Source: Syntrophobacter sp. SbD2 (lineage in GTDB: Bacteria > Desulfobacterota > Binatia > UBA9968). From it: DNA of 52,394 nt. Position 1 is the first letter of the stretch, and the number at the start of each line of letters is the position of its first letter. This document shows, one piece after another, positions 2,955-41,414 of this stretch. The position numbers were made by a program, and so were the translations under genes. The stretch lies in assembly GCA_945889495.1 (NCBI GenBank), contig CAMDBU010000018.1:1-52394 (forward strand), read 5' to 3'. The notes under the pieces are model-generated. The model searched no databases, had not been told where the DNA came from, and was given only the letters and a program-made list of their open reading frames with translations.

Positions 2955-4028
2955 CTACGGCGCCCCGACAATCTTGCGAAAGTCCTGAATATAGGTCGTC
3001 AGATTGGCGCCCAACTTGGGATTGACTACATAGTCGGGCTTGACCTGAAACTCTTTGAACTTGCTCTTCACACCTTTCAAAGCGACGCCCTTGCCCAAGG
3101 TAGCGGCGAGAAAATTCTGCGCTTCGTCAGAAAGAACCCACTCGGCGAACAGCAGCGCCGCGTGCGGATGCGGCGCGTTTTTCATGACGAAGAAACCTTC
3201 CGGCTTGACGATGGCCGGCGCGAGAACCTTGAAGCCCAGCGGCGCGCCCTTCTCGCGGATCGCCGCCGAAGTTTCGCCGTTGATGGCGATGCCGATGGGA
3301 TACTCGCCCGAGCTCACCACCTGAGTTGTCAGGGTGCCGCCGCGCCGGAAGCTCAAGTCTTGTTTCGCCAAGCGAGTCAGATAATTGACCGCCTTGTCCC
3401 GTCCCCAGGCCTCCTCAAGCGCCGCTAGGATAAAGCCCGCCTCGGGATCGAAAAGCATTTTGCCTTTCCACATTGGACTCAGTAACTCGTCGTAACTCTT
3501 CGGCGCCTGCTCGGGTTTCAACGACTGGGTGTTGTAGATCAACGCCGTGGTCAGCGAATACATGCTATGCCAATTGCCGGCGGGATCGAAGGTGCCGTCG
3601 AAGTAACGCGCCGCGCCGGGAATTTGATAGGCCTGCACCAGATTGGCGTTGAGCAACTGATAGCCGTAGCTCAAATCCACCTGCACGACGTCGACGGCAT
3701 GCCGCCCGGCCCGCGCCTCGGTCAACGCCCGGTTGAGTATCCCCTCCCGCGGCGAAAAATAATGATTGAGCGCCATCGCCCGGTAGCGCGAATTATAAAC
3801 CCGCGCCAACGGCAAAAACTCATCGATGGGCAACGTGCCGTAGTAAGCCAACTCGCCTTCGGCTTGCGCGCCTTTCAGCAGATGGGCGATGCGCTCGGGG
3901 GCCTTGAGCGATCTAATTTTCGCCGCCACTTCGGCGACGGTGGCGGCGCGGACAAGCGATGATGCGAGCGGGAAAAGAGAAGCCAATGAAACTACTAACG
4001 CAAAAAGCAATTTTGTCCCAAGTCGCAT
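2955..4028 (-). CDS. Iron-type (FbpA/PotD-like) periplasmic solute-binding protein
   Basis: The 357-residue secreted protein has a signal peptide (MRLGTKLLFALVVSLASLF..., Ala-rich end near residue 28). The body is typical of Fe3+/spermidine/putrescine-type ABC binding proteins: 'LLKGAQAEGELAYYGTL', 'DVVQVDLSYGY', 'YNTQSLKPEQAPKSYDELLSPMWKGKM' split over the hinge, and 'LLFAEWVLSDEAQNFL' near the end. The ATG at 4028 is preferred over upstream starts because GGAG sits six bases before it. The gene lies directly upstream of the GrdE-like gene with a gap of about 110 bases. No permease or ATPase is nearby. The ligand is unknown; iron or an organic acid complex is possible. A second member of this type is at 50821. 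Confidence 0.8.
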   Translation of the reverse strand: MRLGTKLLFALVVSLASLFPLASSLVRAATVAEVAAKIRSLKAPERIAHLLKGAQAEGELAYYGTLPIDEFLPLARVYNSRYRAMALNHYFSPREGILNRALTEARAGRHAVDVVQVDLSYGYQLLNANLVQAYQIPGAARYFDGTFDPAGNWHSMYSLTTALIYNTQSLKPEQAPKSYDELLSPMWKGKMLFDPEAGFILAALEEAWGRDKAVNYLTRLAKQDLSFRRGGTLTTQVVSSGEYPIGIAINGETSAAIREKGAPLGFKVLAPAIVKPEGFFVMKNAPHPHAALLFAEWVLSDEAQNFLAATLGKGVALKGVKSKFKEFQVKPDYVVNPKLGANLTTYIQDFRKIVGAP

Positions 4029-4255
4029 AGACCACTCCATCCTTATTCCTGCATAACGGCGCGAAGCTCCGAGCTCCGTTCTATAGAACGAACACCCGAC
4101 GGTCAAATGATAGCGACTGTGCAGCTACGACGAGAAATCTTGCGCCGCGTTCCCGGCAGGCCGCTGAAAGAAACGGAACATGCATCGACTAGCCCCTGAG
4201 CCATCTCGAAGGGCCCAGCATGAACGGATTTTTCTCGGCTAATTCAATTTCCTCT

Positions 4256-4283
4256 CCGTTCGGCCTGAGCTTGTCGAAGGCCT
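4256..4283. repeat. TCGAAGG/CCTGAGC-family dispersed repeat
   Basis: The sequence around 4256-4283 (CGTTCGGCCTGAGCTTGTCGAAGG) belongs to a dispersed family with further members near 1487, 4197, 6576, 6617, 22876, 26943 and 28126. Members appear in both orientations and differ by a few bases. Positions 4029-4313 otherwise hold no supported gene; CAGCAGCCTGCTGAG at about 4299-4313 matches the ending of another common intergenic element. Confidence 0.5.
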
Positions 4284-4313
4284 CCGAGAGGTCTTTGCAG
4301 CAGCCTGCTGAGA

Positions 4314-4895
4314 TTAACGAATCGGCGCGTTCCAAATCTTCAGCGCCGGAGTGTCATAGTAGTAGCCAAGCACATTGAGCGTCGCTGTATCGAGCAGCAA
4401 GTGTTCGCCGAAGCTCGCCGGCTGATCGATCCAGCGTGCGGCGAGCACCCGGAGGATATGGCCGTGGGCGAAGAGTGCGACGTCGCCATCGGCGGCGCGG
4501 ACTTTGCCGAGCACGCGATCGGCGCGGGCGGCGACTTCTTGCGGCGTCTCGCCGCCTGGACAGCCATGGTGAAACACCGACCAACCCGGCCGTGCCGACT
4601 GAATCTGCTTGGTGGTGAGCCCTTCGTACTCGCCGTAGTTCCACTCGATCAAGTCGGGCTCGACCGCGGCGAACTTGCGGAGTCCCACCAGCTCGCAAGT
4701 ATCGCGCGCCCGTTGCAGCGGGCTACTGAGAACGAGAGCGAACTGCTCACGCGCCAGTACCGGCTGCAATAGCTGCGCGGTCCGCCGCCCCTGCTCGGTC
4801 AGCGGCACATCGGTGACGCCGGTATGTTTGCCGGCGCGGCTCCACTCGGTCTCGCCGTGGCGGATCAGGAAGATTTTTTGCGCTGAGTTAGCCAT
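4314..4895 (-). CDS. Histidine phosphatase (phosphoglycerate-mutase-like)
   Basis: The 193-residue cytosolic protein has the phosphohistidine signature RHGETEW at residues 12-18, then 'TGVTDVPLTEQGRRTAQLL' and the proton-donor region 'IEWNYGEYEGLT'. A second catalytic His is in 'DVALFAHGHILRVLA'. This is the broad-specificity branch of the histidine phosphatase family (sugar phosphates, adenosylcobalamin precursors or other phosphomonoesters). The start ATG at 4895 begins MANSAQKIFLIRHGE, at normal distance from the motif. It lies downstream of the UbiD gene on the same strand, separated by a REP palindrome and CTTTGCG repeats, so it may be transcribed separately. Substrate cannot be read from the sequence. 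Confidence 0.82.
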   Translation of the reverse strand: MANSAQKIFLIRHGETEWSRAGKHTGVTDVPLTEQGRRTAQLLQPVLAREQFALVLSSPLQRARDTCELVGLRKFAAVEPDLIEWNYGEYEGLTTKQIQSARPGWSVFHHGCPGGETPQEVAARADRVLGKVRAADGDVALFAHGHILRVLAARWIDQPASFGEHLLLDTATLNVLGYYYDTPALKIWNAPIR

Positions 4896-4977: not shown

Positions 4978-5060
4978 ATCCCCCTCCTTCATCCTCCCCC
5001 GCGAACGGGGGAGGAAAGAGGTCGGACTCTGTGTTCTCTGTGGTGAGAAATTCTTCCCGA

Positions 5061-6494
5061 CTATCTCCCCCCGACTTTCTCGTCGAGAAATCCCTTCCAA
5101 TCGCCGGCGACTTTATCCTTCAGCTCGCGGCTATGGCCGCTCGACTTGGGGAACTTTTCGCGCCATTCGTAGGGCTTGGTCGCGTCGATGATGGCCCGCG
5201 AGTTAAAGCCTTTTTTGTCCACCGGGATGCGCGGGTCGAGCGGGCCGCTCCAGCAGCGGCGCAGGATTTCGATGGACTCCGCCGGATCCGAGCGTGAGCT
5301 GATCGCCCAGATCACTTCTTCGGTGTTGGTGATGTCGATGTCTTCGTCTACGACGATGACGTAGCGACCGAGATAGGCGCCCGAGCGGCACTGGCTGGCG
5401 ATCATCGCCGCTTGGCGCGCGTGGCCGGGATAGCGCTGCTTGATCGCCAGCACGGTCATGAAACGGCCGCCCGATGGATGGGACCACACCGCTTGGACGT
5501 CAGGCACGCCGGCTTCGTCGAGCGCGTTCCAGATGAGAGCCGATAGCATCAAGGAGAAATGCAAATTGTCGCCGCTGGACGGTTTCAATAATGGAAAGCC
5601 GCACAGGATCGGATCGTTGCGGTGATAGACCGCCTTGACCCGGATCACCGGCACCGCCGGTTGATTGCTGGCGTAGTAACCGGTCCACTCGCCGAAGGGT
5701 CCTTCGGGCATGAAATCGTTGGGCGCCACTTCGCCTTCGATGGCGATCTCCGAGTCGGCCGGGATCGGCAAGCCGGTGAGCGGCCCCTCGACGATATCGT
5801 GCGGCTGGCCGAGGATGCCACCGGCATAAGCATATTCGTTCACGCGATACGGCACGTCCGTCGACGCGACCAGAAAATTAATCGGATGATGGCCGAAGGA
5901 CACCGCGATCGGCAGCGGCTTGCCGTCGGCGTGAGATTTATCGCGATGCACCCGGCCATGCTTGCCCGGCGACATGTGCAAGCCCATGTGATCGCGGCCG
6001 TGCAGCATAATGCGGTAGGTGCCGACGTTGACCCAATTCTCTTCCGGATCGCGGGTGACGACCAAGTCGTCGGTGCCGATGTAACGGCCGCCGTCGAGCT
6101 CATGCCACTTGGGCACGGGAAATTTGAACAGATCGATGTCGGCGCCCTTTTGCACGTTGTCGAACAGCGGCGAGGTTTTAACCAAGCGCGGCTCGATGGG
6201 CTGAATCGACTTCACCCGCTTGCGCCACTGCTGCACGAAGTCGAAGGGCGCCAGCTTCGGGTCCATGCCCATGGTCAGCGCCAAGCGCTGCAACGACGAC
6301 AATAGGTTAACCGCCACACGATGGCCGGCGGGATATTCTTTGATCTTATCGAAGACAATCGCCGGCCGGATCTTCGAGCGCTCGTTGATCAGTTCGGTCA
6401 AGGTCGACAACTCCAAGTTCCAATGAGCATCGTCGACGTTCATCAGCTGGCCGAGGTTGTCGACATCGTTTAACCAGGTTCTCAAGTCCGCCAT
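5061..6494 (-). CDS. UbiD-family prenylated-FMN decarboxylase
   Basis: The 477-residue protein is full length for the UbiD family, which uses prenylated FMN and Mn2+/K+ to decarboxylate or carboxylate aromatic and alpha,beta-unsaturated acids. Visible landmarks are 'NVGTYR' (156-161), the His-rich 'GLHMSPGKHGRVHRD' after it, 'SFGHHPI' (199-205), and the acidic active-site block 'PEGPFGEWTGYY' (263-274). That block supplies the glutamates expected to work with Arg161. The gene sits in a same-strand run with a bicupin dioxygenase, a diiron-type oxygenase and an enolase-superfamily enzyme, suggesting breakdown of an aromatic or hydroxy acid. The prFMN-forming partner UbiX is not in the window. 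Substrate unknown; it could also be annotated as a gallate/vanillate-type decarboxylase. Confidence 0.88.
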   Translation of the reverse strand: MADLRTWLNDVDNLGQLMNVDDAHWNLELSTLTELINERSKIRPAIVFDKIKEYPAGHRVAVNLLSSLQRLALTMGMDPKLAPFDFVQQWRKRVKSIQPIEPRLVKTSPLFDNVQKGADIDLFKFPVPKWHELDGGRYIGTDDLVVTRDPEENWVNVGTYRIMLHGRDHMGLHMSPGKHGRVHRDKSHADGKPLPIAVSFGHHPINFLVASTDVPYRVNEYAYAGGILGQPHDIVEGPLTGLPIPADSEIAIEGEVAPNDFMPEGPFGEWTGYYASNQPAVPVIRVKAVYHRNDPILCGFPLLKPSSGDNLHFSLMLSALIWNALDEAGVPDVQAVWSHPSGGRFMTVLAIKQRYPGHARQAAMIASQCRSGAYLGRYVIVVDEDIDITNTEEVIWAISSRSDPAESIEILRRCWSGPLDPRIPVDKKGFNSRAIIDATKPYEWREKFPKSSGHSRELKDKVAGDWKGFLDEKVGGR

Positions 6495-6575
6495 GATTTC
6501 CTTTCACTCACTTCTAGAAAACTTTCGTTCGATCCGATCAAGTCGCTGAAGCCCCCTCCTGTCATCCTTCCCCGG

Positions 6576-6645
6576 CCGTTCGTCCTGAGCCTGTCGAAGG
6601 ACGCGGGGGAGGAAATCCTGTCCTGAGTTCCATCGAAGGAACGTG
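6576..6645. repeat. Pair of TCGAAGG-family repeats
   Basis: Two copies occur back to back: CGTTCGTCCTGAGCCTGTCGAAGG (about 6578-6601) and GTCCTGAGTTCCATCGAAGG (about 6620-6639). Next comes GGAACTGCTGGAACGATTGGAACG (about 6659-6682), a low-complexity element similar to sequences at 2870 and 21610. They fill the gap 6495-6692 between UbiD and the bicupin gene. Confidence 0.5.
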
Positions 6646-33812: not shown

Positions 33813-33981
33813 CTTTCCTCCGCCAATCGATCCGTTGCCCAAGCTAACCATAGGGTGAATTGAAACTGCCGGTCAAGTGTCGATAGCATAGTGCACGACG
33901 GTTTCGAACCTACCAAGTCGAGCTAGGAATCCGCTACCGACAATGATAATTCGGTGATAACGAATTTACGGAGGCGCATAT

Positions 33982-35631
33982 ATGTCCACGGAAAAACTCG
34001 CGGTGCTCAATCCAGTCGGCTACCCGCCCAAAATCACGGCCAAACAATTGGCGCCGCGCCTCGACAGCCTGGACGGCAAGACGGTTTACCTGGTCGATCC
34101 GCGCTTCGACGATTCGGGATTGTTTCTGCGCCAGCTGCAAAGCTGGTTCGCCGACAACATGCCGTCGGTGAAGACCAAGTTCATCGAGATGAACAACGTC
34201 TACACCAAGGACGATCCGGTTACTTGGGAAAAGATCAAAGCCGACGGCGACGCCGCCATCGTCGGTGTCGGTCATTGAAGCACCTGTGCGCCGGCGGTCG
34301 CCGCGCATGCAATGACCCTCGATAACAAGTACGGCGTGCCCACCGTGGCGCTGCATACTCATGTGTTCGAAAAAGTCGTCGAGTCGGTGAACCGCGTCCA
34401 CGGCATGCCGCGGGCGCCGCGCGCCTTCGTGCCCCAGCCGGTGATGGGCAAGACCGCGGCGCAGCTGCGCGCTTACATCGAAGGCAAGGACCCGATCACC
34501 GGCCGGCCGGTGATGCAGGAAGTCATCGAAGGCTTGACCCAGCCCATCGACGACGCCGAGATTCTCAACGAGAAATTGGCCTACGCTGCCACGCCGCGCC
34601 TGGTCGATGCCGACAGCGAAGACAACTTGCAGCAAATGTTTCTCGATAAAAATTGGACCGACAAGCTGCCGATCGTTTTGCCGACCGAAAAGCGCGTCAA
34701 GGAAATGCTCGCCCACACCAGCCACAAGCCCGACGAAGTGGTCGGCCATATGCGTTCGACCCATTTTCGCGACTACTGGGAATACACCGTGGAAAAAGTC
34801 GCGGTCAATGCGGTGATGGCCGGCGCCCGGCCGGAATATTTTCCGGTGATCCTGGCGCTGGCGTCCACTGGCGTCACCGCCCGCGGCAGCACGTCGAGCT
34901 CGGCGGCGGCCATGGTGGTGGTCAACGGACCGATCCGAAACGAAATCAAGATGAACAGCGGCACCGGCGCCATGGGACCGTTCAACCATGCCAACGCGAC
35001 CATCGGCCGCGCCTACGGATTGCTATCGCAAAACGGCCAAGGCAGCTCGGTGCCCGGCGTGACTTACATGGGTTCGCAAGGCAACAACTACGCCTACAAC
35101 AACGTGACGTTTGCGGAGAACGAAGAGCGCAGCCCGTGGACGCCGTTCCACGTCGAGCAAGGTTTCAAACCGACCGACAGCACGGTCAGCGTCTTCACCG
35201 GCTGCCGGTCGACGGCGTTTACCCTCGGCGTGCGCGAGACTTATTGGCGCGAGCATGTGCGCAGCATGCTGCGCGGCTTGGACGCCCACAGCCAGCCGAC
35301 TTTCCTGCTCGATCCGATCACCGCGCGCCAGTTCATCGACCGCGGCGGCTTCGATACTAAAGAAAAGTTGATCGAGTGGGCCTACGAAAACTCGCTGATG
35401 GCAGCGAAAGAATACTGGGATTATCAACTGATCCAGAACTACATCCTGCCACGCGCCACCTTCGGCGAAGAACCCTACGCGTCGAAGTTGAAAGCCGCCC
35501 CGGATGAAATGGTCCATATTTTCAAAGCCAAAGAAATCCACGTCATCGTCGTCGGCGGCGAGACCAATGGTTATTGGCGCATCATGGATTGTAACTATCA
35601 GAAGACAGTGTCGGTGGATAAATGGCGCTGA
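33982..35631 (+). CDS. UGSC-family selenoprotein (Sec at residue 99, motif U-S-T-C)
   Basis: This is a single 549-residue gene in which codon 99 is TGA (34276-34278). The frame before (33982-34275) and after (34279-35631) is the same, both parts are coding, and the join reads VGVGH-U-STCAPAVAAHAM. The region matches the UGSC family, where Sec is followed two residues later by Cys; here the motif is U99-S-T-C102. Upstream 'RLDSLDGKTVYLVDPRFDDS' and downstream 'VNGPIRNEIKMNSGTGAMGPFNHANATIGR' are typical of the family. A SECIS hairpin follows the TGA. Start ATG at 33982 has GGAGG seven bases before it. Thioredoxin reductase is encoded next. Reaction unknown; a redox or reductive role is inferred. 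Confidence 0.85.
34287..34307 (+). promoter_or_regulatory. Bacterial SECIS hairpin
   Basis: Left arm TGCG-C-CGGC (34287-34295), apical loop GGTC (34296-34299), right arm GCCG-CGCA (34300-34307). This gives eight base pairs with a single bulged C at 34291. The loop begins 17 bases after the TGA. E. coli fdhF has a GGUCU-containing loop 18 bases after its UGA and a single bulged base in the stem, so geometry and loop match what SelB needs. It lies inside the coding sequence, as bacterial SECIS elements do. Confidence 0.75.
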
Positions 35632-35727: not shown

Positions 35728-36651
35728 ATGGCAAACTACGACATCATCATCATCGGCTCCGGCCTCGCCGGCCTTACCGCAGGTTTATTTTCCGCGCGCC
35801 AGGGACTCTCGACCTGCGTTTTCGAGTCGAACATCCCCGGCGGCCATTTGATCAGCATCGAGAAGATCGAAGACTTTCCCGGTTTTCCCGACGGCGTTTC
35901 GGGCTATGAGATCTGTCCCAACTTGCAGCGCCAGGCGTCGGACCATGGCGCGGAGTTTGAGCGCGCCGAAGTTGTGCGATTAGAAGCGCGGGACAAACTC
36001 TGGTCGGTGGTGACCGAGGAAGAAAACTATCATGCCAAGGCGGTCATCGTCGCCACCGGCTCGACGCTCAAGCACCTCGGTGTCCCGGGAGAAGAAAAAC
36101 TCATGGGCCGCGGCGTCAGCCACTGCGCCAGCTGCGACGGGCCGATGTACAACGAACAAACCGTCGGCGTCGTCGGTGGCGGCGACTCGGCGCTGCAAGA
36201 AGCGCTGACGCTGACCAACTACGCGGAAAAGGTATTGCTGTTTCATCAAGGCGATGGGTTCAGCGCCCAGCAAACCTATTTGCAACGAGTGCTCGACAAC
36301 CCGAAGATCGCGCCACGCTACCAAACCGTCATCGAAGAAGTCCTCGGCGACGAAGTCGTCACCGGCGTGCGTACGCGCGATTTGCGGTCCGGCGAAACTT
36401 CGCAGGTCGATCTCACCGGCCTATTCATCTACGTTGGCTTGCAGCCAAATACGTCGCTCTTTGGTAATCTCATCAAGCTCAGCGAAGCCGGCCATGCCCC
36501 AACCGACAACTGGATGAAGACCACGCGCGAAGGCCTCTACGCCATCGGCGATATCCGCCAAGACTCGGCGCGCCAGGCGATCACCTCCGCCGGCGACGGC
36601 GCCACCGCCGCGATCGCGGCATGCCGTTACATCAAGGAAACTTTTCGCTAG
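35728..36651 (+). CDS. trxB: Thioredoxin-disulfide reductase
   Basis: The 307-residue low-molecular-weight thioredoxin reductase has FAD-binding 'IIIIGSGLAGLTAGL' (6-20), redox-active C133-A-S-C136 ('SHCASCDGPMY'), NADPH-binding 'VGVVGGGDSALQEAL' and the second FAD motif 'GLYAIGDIRQDSARQAITSAGDG'. It passes electrons from NADPH to a thioredoxin-like partner. The second half of the dinucleotide domain lacks the usual HRR arginine pair near 'VLLFHQGDGFS', so NADPH preference or partner may differ. It follows the selenoprotein by 96 bases, suggesting it helps re-reduce the Sec-Cys centre. Glycine-reductase operons carry a trxB in a similar role. Confidence 0.88.
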   Translation: MANYDIIIIGSGLAGLTAGLFSARQGLSTCVFESNIPGGHLISIEKIEDFPGFPDGVSGYEICPNLQRQASDHGAEFERAEVVRLEARDKLWSVVTEEENYHAKAVIVATGSTLKHLGVPGEEKLMGRGVSHCASCDGPMYNEQTVGVVGGGDSALQEALTLTNYAEKVLLFHQGDGFSAQQTYLQRVLDNPKIAPRYQTVIEEVLGDEVVTGVRTRDLRSGETSQVDLTGLFIYVGLQPNTSLFGNLIKLSEAGHAPTDNWMKTTREGLYAIGDIRQDSARQAITSAGDGATAAIAACRYIKETFR

Positions 36652-36698: not shown

Positions 36699-36778
36699 TC
36701 ATTCCCGTGAAAACGGGAATCCAGTCTTAGTCGTTACGTTATTTGCACAACCTGGATTCCCGCCTACGCGGGAATGAC
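36699..36778. repeat. CATTCCCG...GGAATCCAG inverted repeat pair
   Basis: Two hairpins, GTCATTCCCGTGAAAACGGGAAT (part; from 36699) and ATTCCCGCCTACGCGGGAAT (36756-36775), are also complementary to each other through GTCATTCCCG/CGGGAATGAC and CCAG/CTGG. The same structure is at 42754-42831, and a degraded half is at about 40348-40376. It lies directly before the first PF04392 gene. Confidence 0.7.
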
Positions 36779-36830
36779 ATGCACGACAGAATGCTTCTCG
36801 ATTCGAGACTTTGGAGCGCAAAGAAATGCT

Positions 36831-37802
36831 ATGAATAAAAAAATCCCTGTCTTTGCGCTTGGCGCTTTGCTCTTTGCGCTTTGCTTCCGTGCCGAGGCGC
36901 AGCAGCCAACGAAAATTCCCCGGATAGGATACCTAGGCGGCAGGGCCCTGGCCCGCATCGAGGCATTCCGTCAAGGCTTGCGCGAGCTTGGCTACGTGGA
37001 GGGGAAAAATATCATCATTGAGCGGCGAGATGCGGAGGGGAAAGAGGAACGGCAACGCGCCCTGGCAGCCGACCTAGTCCGTCTCAAGGTAGATGTCATC
37101 GTCACGGGCGGTGCGACTTCGACACGTGCCGCCAAGGAAGCAACGGTTACGATTCCGATTGTGATGACGCAGGATCCTGATCCAATTGGCAATGGGTTCA
37201 TCGCCAGCCTGGCGCGACCGGGCGGCAACATCACTGGATTGTCAAACCTTAACCGGGAGCTAAGCGGAAAACGACTGGAGCTACTGAAAGAGACAGTTCC
37301 CAAAATGACGCGCGTGGCCGTCTTCGGTACTTCGACCTTCCCGGGCACCGCAGAAAATTTAAAAGAGACGGAACGCGCCGCAGGGGCATTGAAAGTGAAG
37401 CTACAATTCCTGAACATTCTAGGCCCGATGGATATTGAGAGCGCGTTTCGAGCCGCGAGCAAAGGGCTCGCTGAGGGGGTCCTCGTGCTGGGGGGTGGTG
37501 TGCTCACCAATCTGCAAACACAGATTATCGAACTTGCGGCAAAGAGCCAGCTCCCGGCGATATACCACATCCGAGAATCCGTGGAAGCCGGGGGACTCAT
37601 GTCCTACGGCACGAGTGTTACCGACTTGGACCGGCGCGCCGCCACGTATGTGGACAAGATCCTAAAAGGCCGGACGCCCGCCGACCTACCCGTCGAGCAG
37701 CCAATAAAGTTTGAGTTCATCGTCAATCTAAAGACCGCCAAGCAGATCGGCCTAACGATCCCGCCCAACGTGCTGGTGCGGGCGGACCGGGTGATTCGGT
37801 GA
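36831..37802 (+). CDS. PF04392-type ABC solute-binding protein, copy 1
   Basis: The 323-residue secreted protein has signal peptide 'MNKKIPVFALGALLFALCFRAEAQ' (quoted over its cleavage zone). The PF04392 (COG2984) body follows: 'QQPTKIPRIGYLGG', 'FRQGLRELGYVEGKNIIIERR', 'VDVIVTGGATSTRAAKEAT', 'TIPIVMTQDPDPIGNGFIASLARPGGNITGLS' (split over two strands), and the ending 'LKTAKQIGLTIPPNVLVRADRVIR'. Relatives bind aromatic amino acids (TrpX) or other ligands. It is closest to copy 4 (40431), sharing the 'KIxVFALGALLFA' signal peptide and CATTCCCG repeats upstream. No permease or ATPase in the window. Confidence 0.85.
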   Translation: MNKKIPVFALGALLFALCFRAEAQQPTKIPRIGYLGGRALARIEAFRQGLRELGYVEGKNIIIERRDAEGKEERQRALAADLVRLKVDVIVTGGATSTRAAKEATVTIPIVMTQDPDPIGNGFIASLARPGGNITGLSNLNRELSGKRLELLKETVPKMTRVAVFGTSTFPGTAENLKETERAAGALKVKLQFLNILGPMDIESAFRAASKGLAEGVLVLGGGVLTNLQTQIIELAAKSQLPAIYHIRESVEAGGLMSYGTSVTDLDRRAATYVDKILKGRTPADLPVEQPIKFEFIVNLKTAKQIGLTIPPNVLVRADRVIR

Positions 37803-37857
37803 AAAACTGCAAAGCGCATAGGGCTAAGAATAATGGTAAAGAAACGGGTGAAAACTG

Positions 37858-38844
37858 ATGAGAAAGAAAATCTTTGTCTTTGTTCTGAGCGCTATTTTCT
37901 GGGCTCTTAATTGTCCATCCGAGGCGCAGCAGCCGACAAAGGTGTACCGCATCGGCATGCTGGCAACCGGCTCCGCCTCAACCCACAAGAGCCGAATCGA
38001 TGCTTTCCGGCAAGGGCTGCAAGAGCTGGGCTACATCGAGGGGAAAAACGTTGTGCTTGAACTCCGCTATGCCGAGGGTAAGCGGGAACGATACGCCGAG
38101 CTCGCCGCCGAGATAGTGCGGTTAAAACCTGACGTCATAGTCGTCGGTAGCGTTAGTTTCACGGCGGCCGCAAAGCAAGCGACTAGAACGATTCCGATTG
38201 TCGTAGGCGGCGCCGGCGATTTGGTTGGGAGCGGGCTGGTCGCCAGCCTTGCTCGCCCGGGAGGAAATGTCACTGGCTCCACCGATATTGGCCCGGACCT
38301 CAGTGGCAAGCGGCTGGAGCTTCTTAAAGAAGCCGTGCCAAAGACGCGACGGGTTGCGGTGCTTTGGGGCGATGTTGCGGGCTCTACTGATGTAGAGGAG
38401 ATCAAACAAACAGAAATTGCCGCTCGGGCGTTCGGAATAAACCTTCAGGTTGTGTCTGCCCAAGCGCCGGATCGTTTTCAAGATGCTTTCGCCGCAATCA
38501 CGAAGGGACGCGCCGATGTTCTGGTCATCCTCCAGGGCAGCTTCACCATCTTTCATAGTAAACAGCTCCTGGAACTGGCAGCTAAGAATAGGTTGCCAAC
38601 AATGTGCGAGGGGTCGAATTTTATCGAAGCGGGCTGTCTGATATCGTACGGACCCGACCAAATTTACCAGTGGCATCGTGCGGCCACGTTCGTCGACAAG
38701 ATCTTCAAGGGTAGGACGCCGGCTGACCTGCCCGTCGAGCAGCCGATGAAGTTCGAGCTTATCATCAATCTGAAAACGGCCAAGCAAATAGGCCTGACGA
38801 TTCCGCCCAACGTGCTGGTGCGGGCGGATAAAGTGATTCGGTAA
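37858..38844 (+). CDS. PF04392-type ABC solute-binding protein, copy 2
   Basis: The 328-residue protein is very close to copy 3: the shared features run through almost the whole length, for example 'SASTHKSRIDAFRQGLQELGY', 'VVLELRYAEGKRERYAEL', 'IPIVVGGAGDLVGSGLVASLARPGGNVTGSTD', 'AQAPDRFQDAFAAI' and 'MCEGSNFIEAGCLISYGPDQIY'. The signal peptide is 'RKKIFVFVLSAIFWALNCPSEAQ'. The 55-base spacer before it (AAGCGCATAGGGCTAAG...AAAGAAACGG) is also duplicated before copy 3, so gene and spacer were copied together. Ligand unknown. Confidence 0.85.
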   Translation: MRKKIFVFVLSAIFWALNCPSEAQQPTKVYRIGMLATGSASTHKSRIDAFRQGLQELGYIEGKNVVLELRYAEGKRERYAELAAEIVRLKPDVIVVGSVSFTAAAKQATRTIPIVVGGAGDLVGSGLVASLARPGGNVTGSTDIGPDLSGKRLELLKEAVPKTRRVAVLWGDVAGSTDVEEIKQTEIAARAFGINLQVVSAQAPDRFQDAFAAITKGRADVLVILQGSFTIFHSKQLLELAAKNRLPTMCEGSNFIEAGCLISYGPDQIYQWHRAATFVDKIFKGRTPADLPVEQPMKFELIINLKTAKQIGLTIPPNVLVRADKVIR

Positions 38845-38898
38845 TAGAACGCCAAGCGCATAGAGCTAAGAGCAATTGGAAAGAAACGGAGAAAACTC

Positions 38899-39885
38899 AT
38901 GAGAAAGAAAATCTTTGTCTTTGCTCTAAGCGCGTTGCTTTTGGCGCTTAGCTTTCCCATCGAGGCGCAGCAACCGACGAAAGTTTTCCGGATCGGCTCG
39001 CTGGCTTCCGGTTCCGCCTCAACCCACAAAAGCCGGATCGATGCTTTGCGGCAAGGTCTGCACGAGCTGGGCTACGTCGAGGGGAAAAACGTTGTGCTGG
39101 AAGTCCGCTATGCGGAGGGCAAGCGCGAGAGATTCGCCGATCTCGCCGTCGAGATGGTGCGGCTAAAACCTGATGTCATTGTCGTCGGAAGCGTTGGTTT
39201 CACGGCGGCCGCCAAGCAAGCGACCAGCACGATACCCATCGTCGTGGGCGGCGCCGGCGATCTGGTTGGGACCGGGGTCGTTGCCAGCCTGGCTCGCCCG
39301 GGAGGAAACGTCACTGGCTCCACCGACATTTCCCCGGACCTCAGCGGCAAGCGGCTGGAGCTTCTAAAGGAAGCCATTCCAAAGGCACGACGGGTGGCGG
39401 TGCTTTGGTACGATTTTGCGGGTTCGTCCGACGCAGACGAGGTCAAACAAACAGAAATTGCCGCTCGGGCGCTCGGAATAAATCTTCAAGTTGTGTCTGC
39501 CCAAGCGCCGGATCGTTTTCAAGATGCTTTTACCGCAATCAAGAAGGGCAACGCCGATGCTCTGGTCATCCTCCAGGGCAGCTTCACTAACTTTCATAGT
39601 AAACAACTCATCGAGCTGGCGGCCAAGAATAAGTTGCCATTAATGTGCGAGGGGTCGAATTTTATCGAAGCGGGTTGTCTCATGGCGTACGGACCCAACC
39701 AAATTTACGGGTGGCATCGCGCGGCAACCTTCGTCGACAAAATCCTCAAGGGTAGGACGCCTGCCGACCTTCCGGTGGAGCAACCGATGAAGTTCGAATT
39801 GATCATCAATCTCAAGACCGCCAAGCAGATCGGCCTAACGATCCCACCCAATCTGCTGGCGCGGGCGGCCCGGGTCATTCGCTGA
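38899..39885 (+). CDS. PF04392-type ABC solute-binding protein, copy 3
   Basis: The 328-residue recent tandem duplicate of copy 2 has signal peptide 'RKKIFVFALSALLLALSFPIEAQ'. Differences cluster in a few surface stretches, for instance 'LWYDFAGSSDADEV' here versus 'LWGDVAGSTDVEEI' in copy 2, and 'LMAYGPNQIYGWHR' versus 'LISYGPDQIYQWHR'. The frame is intact, so both copies are probably expressed. It is followed by an oppositely oriented YgiT gene, which separates it from copy 4. Confidence 0.85.
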   Translation: MRKKIFVFALSALLLALSFPIEAQQPTKVFRIGSLASGSASTHKSRIDALRQGLHELGYVEGKNVVLEVRYAEGKRERFADLAVEMVRLKPDVIVVGSVGFTAAAKQATSTIPIVVGGAGDLVGTGVVASLARPGGNVTGSTDISPDLSGKRLELLKEAIPKARRVAVLWYDFAGSSDADEVKQTEIAARALGINLQVVSAQAPDRFQDAFTAIKKGNADALVILQGSFTNFHSKQLIELAAKNKLPLMCEGSNFIEAGCLMAYGPNQIYGWHRAATFVDKILKGRTPADLPVEQPMKFELIINLKTAKQIGLTIPPNLLARAARVIR

Positions 39886-39962
39886 AGCAGAACCGGTAAT
39901 GGCAGGGATGAAAAAGCAACGCAGCAGTGGACAAGCCCTCACGCCGCTTCGTCGCTTGACTG

Positions 39963-40217
39963 TTAGCGCGCGACGGGCACGCGCACATGTTTGGTGATCC
40001 GACTTTTCGCCGCAGCGATCTGACGTATGCTTTTGAAAACCACAGCGCGATGGTAACGCTCGCCGCACTTGTTACACACCCACGCCGGCACGTTCTCGAT
40101 GATCACTAACTCGTCCTTGTGCCTGAAGTATTCCCGGCCACGCTTCGCCGCTAGGTGACCGGTGCAGCACCGCGTGCAAATCTCACCGGTTAAGTCAGCC
40201 ACTTTTTTAGCTTTCAT
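39963..40217 (-). CDS. YgiT-type zinc-finger (MqsA-N-like antitoxin) protein, orphan
   Basis: The 84-residue protein has two CxxC pairs, 'GEICTRCCTGHL' and 'AWVCNKCGERY', that form the zinc site of the MqsA/YgiT N-terminal domain, then a short helical tail ('AVVFKSIRQIAAAKSRITKHVR'). Such proteins are usually encoded beside a DUF4258 or BrnT/MqsR-like toxin. None is recognisable in the flanking spaces (39886-39962, 40218-40430). It is opposite in strand to the binding-protein row and looks like an insertion between copies 3 and 4. The start at 40217 (MKAKKVADL) is favoured over an upstream ATG at 40265. Confidence 0.75.
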   Translation of the reverse strand: MKAKKVADLTGEICTRCCTGHLAAKRGREYFRHKDELVIIENVPAWVCNKCGERYHRAVVFKSIRQIAAAKSRITKHVRVPVAR

Positions 40218-40430
40218 ACGCAGTAATAATAACCACAAGTTGACGGGTTTGAAATAGTTGCACAACCGCGGTCAGCCTCCATTGGAATTTCGTTTGCAAG
40301 ACGCAACCTTTTCGATCAGGTTGATGGAACGTGTTGACACTCCGGTTCCCGGTCATTCACCTGCGCGCGGGAACGACGTGCTACGCGCAAAATTTTGACG
40401 AGTGTAAGACTTGCGGTGCGGAAAGACTCT

Positions 40431-41414
40431 ATGGATAAAAAAATCTTTGTCTTTGCTCTTGGCGCTCTGCTCTTTGCGGTTAGCTTGACCGCCGAGGCAC
40501 AGCAGGCAACGAAAATTGCACGGATAGGATTCCTAAGTACAACCTCTCTCACCGCTGTCTCGGCGCGCATCGAAGCGTTCCGCCAGGGCCTGCGCGACCT
40601 TGGATATGTGGAGGGGAAGAACATTGTCTTTGAGTGGCGATCTGCAGAGGGAAAGGCTGATCTCCTCCAGGAACTTGCGGCTGAGCTGGTTCGTCTCAAC
40701 GTGGACATCATTGTCACGGCCGGCGCGGGGGACACGAAGGTCGCGAAGAACGCTACTAACACGATTCCCATTGTCATGGCGCAGGATGGCGATCCTGTTG
40801 CCAGCGGGTTCGTCGCCAGTCTGGCGCGCCCAGGACGAAATATCACTGGATTGTCCACGCTCGCGCCGGAGCTCAGCGGAAAACAATTGGACCTTCTGAA
40901 GGAGGTCATCCCTAAACTCACCCGCGTGGCCGTGTTCGCGACTTCGACCCGAGTAGGCAATGCGCAATCGTTAAAAGAGATCGAACTCGCCGCCGGCGCG
41001 TTCAAGGCGAAGGTTCAATACTTAGACCTTCTAGCTCCCAAGGATATAGAGACTGCATTCCGAGAGGCGCGCAAAGGCCGTAGTGAGGCACTCCTCGTGC
41101 TGCAGAGCCCCGTCTTTTTTGCTCAGCGAAAACAGATTGCGGACCTTGCGATAAAGAGCCAGCTCCCAGCGATATACCCACAAACGGAATATCCGGAAGC
41201 CGGTGGCCTCATGTGCTATGGCGCAAATACACCCGACTTATTCCGCCGCGCCGCTACCTATGTGGACAAGATCCTAAAAGGTCGGACGCCCGCCGATCTC
41301 CCCGTCGAGCAGCCGGTGAAGTTCGAGTTCATCGTCAATCTGAAAGCCGCCAAGGCGATCGGCCTGACCATTCCGCCGAACGTGCTGGTGCGGGCGGACC
41401 GGGTCATAAAGTAA
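40431..41414 (+). CDS. PF04392-type ABC solute-binding protein, copy 4
   Basis: The 327-residue protein has signal peptide 'MDKKIFVFALGALLFAVSLT' with cleavage after 'AEA'. The body has 'ATKIARIGFLSTTSLTA', 'FRQGLRDLGYVEGKNIVFEWR', 'VDIIVTAGAGDTKVAKNAT', 'DGDPVASGFVASLARPGRNITGLST' (split), and ends 'GLTIPPNVLVRADRVIK'. It is related to copy 1 more than to 2 and 3. The upstream gap holds a degraded CATTCCCG repeat (about 40348-40376) comparable to the full one before copy 1, so the pair 1/4 may derive from an older duplication. Ligand unknown. Confidence 0.85.
   Translation: MDKKIFVFALGALLFAVSLTAEAQQATKIARIGFLSTTSLTAVSARIEAFRQGLRDLGYVEGKNIVFEWRSAEGKADLLQELAAELVRLNVDIIVTAGAGDTKVAKNATNTIPIVMAQDGDPVASGFVASLARPGRNITGLSTLAPELSGKQLDLLKEVIPKLTRVAVFATSTRVGNAQSLKEIELAAGAFKAKVQYLDLLAPKDIETAFREARKGRSEALLVLQSPVFFAQRKQIADLAIKSQLPAIYPQTEYPEAGGLMCYGANTPDLFRRAATYVDKILKGRTPADLPVEQPVKFEFIVNLKAAKAIGLTIPPNVLVRADRVIK

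Follow-up and report, generated by a model that had tools for sequence, protein, structure and literature searches.

A predicted selenoprotein with a U-S-T-C motif in Syntrophobacter sp. SbD2 belongs to a deep branch of the UGSC family

The conservation of an in-frame TGA in relatives and the protein homology on both sides of it indicate that the apparent stop codon at 34276-34278 is almost certainly read as selenocysteine (Sec), giving one predicted selenoprotein of 549 residues. The gene lies in the window, which is the whole stretch of DNA analysed (52,394 nucleotides, contig CAMDBU010000018.1 of Syntrophobacter sp. SbD2). The evidence beyond chance consists of the in-frame TGA with homology on either side, its recurrence at the same codon, and conserved synonymous sites downstream of it. 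Sequence analysis establishes the conserved TGA, the presence of the Sec machinery, conservation of the top of the downstream hairpin at the RNA level, the UGSC ancestry of the protein, and its pairing with a partner domain.

The reading frame and its features

A single frame runs from the ATG at 33982 to the stop codon at 35629-35631, and read-through translation gives the TGA at 34276-34278 as its sole interruption. The product reads MSTEKL...AAIVGVGH-U99-STCAPAVAA...VDKWR, with U99 and the final stop as the only TGA codons. A previous sequence-only reading had described two in-phase frames split solely by this TGA, and translation of 33982-35631 confirms the description. It had also foreseen that a normal annotation would give pieces of 98 and 439 residues, and ordinary ORF calling yields exactly those (33982-34278 and 34312-35631). 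The features are as follows.

33982-35631, + strand: predicted selenoprotein gene, 549 residues, Sec at 99, UGSC-type domain and partner domain (translation, Pfam, orthologs)
33970-33974, + strand: GGAGG ribosome-binding site, 7 bases upstream of ATG 33982 (direct sequence reading)
34276-34278, + strand: TGA predicted to encode selenocysteine, residue 99 in GHUSTC (recurrence across ortholog loci)
34287-34307, + strand: putative SECIS hairpin with 8 Watson-Crick pairs, one bulge and a GGUC loop (reading, folding, synonymous-site conservation)
33982-34566, + strand: N-terminal UGSC-type domain, residues 1-195, alpha/beta fold (PF24696; model pTM 0.87; fold matches of residues 28-190)
34567-35628, + strand: C-terminal partner domain, residues 196-549, no named family (domain searches, gene pairing)
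35728-36651, + strand: thioredoxin-reductase-like flavoprotein with a CASC motif, 96 bases downstream (PF07992, 137 bits)

The motif is U-S-T-C and differs from U-G-S-C, as the sequence-only reading had noted. Its position is UGSC-like as claimed, but the description of Sec as two residues before Cys needs correction: two residues lie between U99 and C102, which makes the motif UxxC.

An antisense open frame of 351 residues (33934-34989, - strand) lies opposite the selenoprotein gene, and a comparable frame is found in 43 of 51 ortholog loci. Codon usage in GC-rich genes is the most likely cause.

Recurrence of the TGA in relatives

The TGA is present at the codon of residue 99 in all 53 loci that have at least 41% identity and cover this codon, the window's own included; the count was made without a TGA filter, and the loci are from metagenome assemblies, are mutually non-independent, and in many cases belong to close relatives. 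Three loci with less than 29% identity (L036, L041, and L045) show TGC or TGT through an alignment shift of three codons, and their TGA precedes GSC or GGC. A wider tally, in which identical 240-base contexts were merged and four of 173 rows gapped at the Sec column were set aside, has 70 distinct U-S-T/S-C loci including the window. All 70 have TGA, with 68 USTC and two USSC motifs. The tally also takes in 67 other members of the family, with TGA in 64, Cys in two (C-G-S-C), and another residue in one (T-R-S-G). Both the Sec and the Cys columns of UxxC are invariant in 34 aligned rows, all of which were chosen with TGA. According to the record titles, the holders of U-S-T-C are Rokubacteria, Chloroflexi (many of them Caldilineaceae), Latescibacterota, Binatia, Deltaproteobacteria, Acidobacteria, and Dehalococcoidia. 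These phylum labels may be wrong because all of the holders are metagenome assemblies.

The sequence-only reading had looked to homologs with Cys or Sec at position 99 in a single chain. The single chain across both halves is borne out, while Cys homologs are found only outside the U-S-T-C branch. No Cys member was found within the branch, so that the alignment of Sec with Cys in homologs is provided by two CGSC loci of the wider family (L115 and L116). These come from two relatives in one family of the same class; their C-G-S-C proteins have no TGA at the motif, and they are the only Cys members seen.

Selenocysteine machinery

The genome has all four of the genes expected where a bacterial selenoprotein is made, selA, selB, selC, and selD, which had been singled out beforehand as a check. 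The tRNA-Sec gene selC scores 73.1 bits (cut-off 47), and ARAGORN reports a tRNA-SeC(tca) in the same genome. SelB (411 bits), SelA (614 bits), and SelD (377 bits) are encoded by three adjacent genes on contig C26. The selD gene (C26:37215-38141) has an in-frame TGA of its own, which makes selenophosphate synthetase itself a likely selenoprotein. In a survey of 40 genomes with orthologs, reached through 41 of 45 ortholog loci, selA is present in 38; it was not found in the other two, whose assemblies are 3.3 and 2.1 Mb.

The putative SECIS hairpin

A hairpin with eight pairs, one bulged base, and a GGTC loop is read directly at 34287-34307, just as had been described. Its lower pairs are T34287-A34307, G34288-C34306, C34289-G34305, G34290-C34304, and C34291-G34303. 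Above the bulged C34292 are the pairs G34293-C34302, G34294-C34301, and C34295-G34300, closed by the loop at 34296-34299. Computed folds add one or two pairs at the base. The hairpin had been placed 17 bases after the TGA; this distance holds for the start of the loop, but the hairpin itself begins after 8. Rfam, run over the whole window, reported nothing at the gathering threshold.

The geometry agrees with the bacterial SECIS model, and the stability taken alone is ordinary. As set out in the accessible text of PMC13188914, the model has a loop of 3-9 bases, a stem of 4-16 pairs, G among the first two loop bases, a spacing of 16-37, and a minimum free energy of at most -7.5. The hairpin has a loop of 4 (GGUC, starting with GG), a stem of at least 8 pairs, a spacing of 17, and an energy of -14.2 kcal/mol. 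The SECIS geometry claimed earlier is thus upheld by the model, and it is accompanied by conserved synonymous sites. The fold stability is modest, with a z score of -2.22 and three of 200 dinucleotide shuffles equally good. Of 20000 synonymous recodings, which leave the amino acids unchanged, 2683 (13%) fold as well as the real hairpin, and 12122 have a SECIS-like geometry. Since synonymous recodings often fold alike, the hairpin of this one GC-rich sequence is weak evidence, and its energy was rejected as proof of a SECIS.

Conservation at synonymous sites points to a real SECIS. It was used in place of covariation, which was set aside as proof because the top of the stem scarcely varies. The sequences compared were drawn from the 53 frames with at least 41% identity, each with one TGA and otherwise free of stops; one row was kept per group above 95% identity, and four broken or partial loci (L026, L065, L085, and L090) were left out, giving 36 dereplicated sequences. 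Fourfold codons were defined as codons for A, G, P, T, or V common to at least 80% of the 36. Among 131 such conserved codons, the only five without a third-base change are codons 103-107 (GCG CCG GCG GTC GCC), which form the top of the hairpin. In 100000 random draws of five codons, none matched this frozen run. The hairpin core CCGGCGGTCGCCG is found in 67 of the 70 distinct loci, the exceptions being L086, L087, and L088, and in 69 of the 70 the 38 bases that follow the TGA have a folding energy of -7.5 or lower. The sequence CGGCGGTCGCCG is retained at an equal distance in L089, where the motif is U-P-G-C. The lower stem is not conserved in Caldilineaceae or in L066.

Relationship to the UGSC family

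The predicted U-S-T-C selenoproteins are a deep branch of the known UGSC selenoproteins and do not form a new family. The joined chain matches the Pfam UGSC family (PF24696) with 81.2 bits over residues 8-164 (cut-off 25). Each half alone also exceeds the cut-off, with 32.8 and 27.6 bits, and the second ORF covers positions 109-157 of the 172 in the model. The TGA therefore falls inside the UGSC domain, and the break does not separate two domains. The UxxC motif with Sec or Cys that belongs to PF24696 is found as U99-S-T-C102. PF24696 is the only Pfam family reported; PF07355 (glycine/proline reductase B) has no match at E up to 1. GrdB and PrdB share the UxxC motif (table 1 of PMC13188914) but differ from the window protein in belonging to PF07355.

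The NCBI equivalog model for UGSC (NF041046) gives the three tested members of the branch scores below its cut-off of 125. The window protein scores 51.9 bits, and two other members score 48.4 (L089) and 73.3 (L086). The U-G-S-C motif of this model is replaced by U-S-T-C in the window protein. A paralog from the same genome, on contig C38 and likewise a fusion, passes the model with 131.7 bits. The window protein had been called an overlooked selenoprotein. This is true of the NCBI model, but Pfam does reach the protein, and a UGSC fusion was already reported in 2008, as the accessible part of PMC2398784 attests.

A tree of 134 N-terminal domains groups all 67 U-S-T/S-C rows with the single U-P-G-C row, and the branch that sets this group apart has a length of 1.71 and support of 100/100; rows under 140 residues and duplicates were left out, and the program warns that several long branches elsewhere may be misplaced. 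The placement of the U-P-G-C row within the group is weak. A profile search shows a similarly sharp division: in 301 genomes of the phylum of the Caldilineaceae locus, of which 31 had a match, 13 matches exceeded 330 bits and all others stayed below 90. The genome of one relative has as many as 12 UGSC matches. On an Acidobacteriota contig (L088), two fusions, one U-G-S-C and one U-S-S-C, lie in tandem on the same strand (3198-4778 and 5013-6638).

As far as the accessible sources describe the family (PF24696; NF041046; PMC2398784), the branch has in common with it a homologous N-terminal domain, the Sec column, the UxxC spacing, and the partner domain. In contrast, the branch has U-S-T-C or U-S-S-C in place of U-G-S-C, scores under the NF041046 cut-off, is separated deeply in the tree, has a SECIS sequence of its own with the same core in nearly all loci, and has no Cys members among those seen. 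The table of a 2026 review gives U-G-S-C as the only motif of the family (PMC13188914). No paper naming the U-S-T-C branch was found in the searchable literature, which is mostly without subscription papers, and for Binatota with selenocysteine nothing was found there beyond one reference title.

Domains and structure models

The partner domain accompanies nearly all UGSC domains. In relatives it is either fused or encoded by a gene of its own next to the UGSC gene, on either side. Loci were picked by the N-terminal domain alone, and a partner within 1500 bases on the same strand was counted as adjoining. By this measure the partner is fused to or beside 76 of the 79 UGSC domains checked (20/20 picked by Pfam, 14/16 other UGSC, and 42/43 U-S-T-C loci), and the single U-S-T-C miss is a partial locus. 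A 2008 report describes a UGSC protein joined to a further conserved domain, Unknown_1 (PMC2398784). The window gene and the paralog on contig C38 have the same layout of a UGSC domain with an extra conserved domain. The accessible text of that report names the UGSC motif, unlike the motif here, and the likeness is one of fusion layout. Residues of the partner domain that are invariant in the alignment include N315, G316, P317, E379, E381, W386, and H390.

The AlphaFold models have a pTM of 0.87 for both domains, and in the model U99 lies between a strand (91-97) and a helix (102-116). The best fold matches of N-terminal residues 28-190 are a designed protein and CheY-like, B12-binding-like, and other three-layer folds, with Z up to 10.6. 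A thioredoxin fold has been suggested for UGSC in the accessible text of PMC2398784; no thioredoxin appears among the 50 matches listed, and the domain does not look clearly thioredoxin-like, though it may still have such a fold. Foldseek with the whole model gave one row below 0.001, with a TM-score of 0.15. For the partner domain there is no fold match at E of 0.001 or less, and the best Z is 6.0 over 75 residues. Weak fumarate-hydratase rows for this domain cover a common arrangement only, and no fold is claimed from them. A sequence search of solved structures gave nothing useful.

Gene neighbourhood

The neighbours of the selenoprotein gene vary by phylum, and a conserved operon across the branch was rejected. 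The product of the reductase-like gene at 35728-36651 scores 323.6 bits against TIGR01292, below the cut-off of 343.45. Of 51 ortholog loci, some with little flanking sequence, 4 have such a gene beside that of the selenoprotein. The neighbours in Caldilineaceae are PhyH-type, kelch-type, and unnamed genes. At L118 (G009:C44) a single gene separates a reductase-like gene from a canonical UGSC pair, and glutamate-mutase-type genes (MutE, B12-binding, MutL), ETF alpha and beta, and an ABC importer are also nearby.

A species of the same genus has a decayed copy only (L120, G002:C19, 4406-4795). The first ~80 and last ~70 residues are in different frames and the middle is lost. The copy adjoins a thioredoxin-reductase-like gene of 312 residues.

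Within the window, four substrate-binding protein paralogs are found at 36774-41411 (+ strand); the one scanned matches PF04392, and the other three belong to the same cluster. A small CxxC-rich, zinc-finger-like ORF (39963-40265, - strand) precedes the last of them. Importers and amidohydrolases are found near the window gene and at several related loci, and they suggest that small molecules are taken up and degraded.

Alternative interpretations

The predicted selenoprotein was weighed against three other readings of the TGA. One is that the stop is real and separates two genes, one for a protein of 98 residues and one, beginning at ATG 34312, for a protein of 439. Ordinary ORF calling gives just these two, and elsewhere in the family the UGSC and partner domains are separate genes. 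But the split genes of relatives break after the UGSC domain and retain the TGA, whereas the break in the window is within the domain and not at its border. Direct reading finds nothing like GGAGG upstream of 34312, the frame is open past the stop in 53/53 loci, and the third bases of the codons that follow are frozen. Two genuine genes are thus very improbable. Pseudogene decay or a sequencing error could be imagined from the decayed copy in the sister species and from the frames of L026, L085, and L090, which are broken elsewhere. The rest of the window frame is intact, however, and decay or error is already refuted because the TGA recurs at the same codon, in 70/70 distinct loci with several phylum labels; its probability is negligible. 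Nothing was found that favours reading TGA as another amino acid, such as Trp in a recoded genome, or as general read-through. Against it are the complete Sec machinery, the termination of the window gene itself at TGA, the replacement of TGA by Cys and not Trp in two family members, and the SECIS-like hairpin top conserved at synonymous sites, and it hardly deserves credence.

A further alternative accepts the selenoprotein and concerns its chemistry. Sec may act as a nucleophile on a small substrate, in the manner of GrdB and PrdB, with the flavoprotein gene a chance neighbour and no coupling to a reductase. The placement of UxxC at a strand-helix junction in a Rossmann- or CheY-like domain of the fold model is in accord with this, as are the importer and amidohydrolase genes and the small share of ortholog loci that a reductase-like gene adjoins. 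The lack of a PF07355 match argues against it, and so does the recurrence of a reductase-like gene near the UGSC pair of L118 and the decayed copy of L120. This chemistry is a serious contender, though it falls somewhat short of an even chance.

Proposed mechanism and significance

In the preferred reading as a selenoprotein, UGA at 34276-34278 would be decoded by a ribosome with SelB, tRNA-Sec, and the downstream SECIS hairpin. The predicted active site would be U-S-T-C, placed where a strand ends and a helix begins in the UGSC-type alpha/beta domain, fused to a partner of ~350 residues. U99 and C102 may form a Sec-Cys redox pair, or U99 may be a nucleophile with C102 as its resolving Cys, and the partner domain would provide substrate binding or the remaining part of the active site. 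Redox coupling to the downstream reductase-like protein is plausible; reduction of U99-C102 by this flavoprotein is the least certain step and is proposed tentatively. It is conceivable, although rather doubtful, that the U-S-T-C branch represents a distinct selenoenzyme, a fused two-domain catalyst present in several phyla that would use a small organic substrate in a reductive reaction unlike those of characterised selenoproteins.

The existing UGSC family takes up much of the surprise of the finding. What is new is the motif, the frozen top of the SECIS, the clear branch, and the low score with the NCBI model. The branch appears to be missed by that model, since the three members tested reach 48 to 73 bits and the cut-off is 125. 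Recognition of the branch would mend gene models that are split at the TGA, and it adds a case in which selection on a SECIS can be read at synonymous sites. A two-domain enzyme family is indicated as well, and its chemistry is now open to tests.
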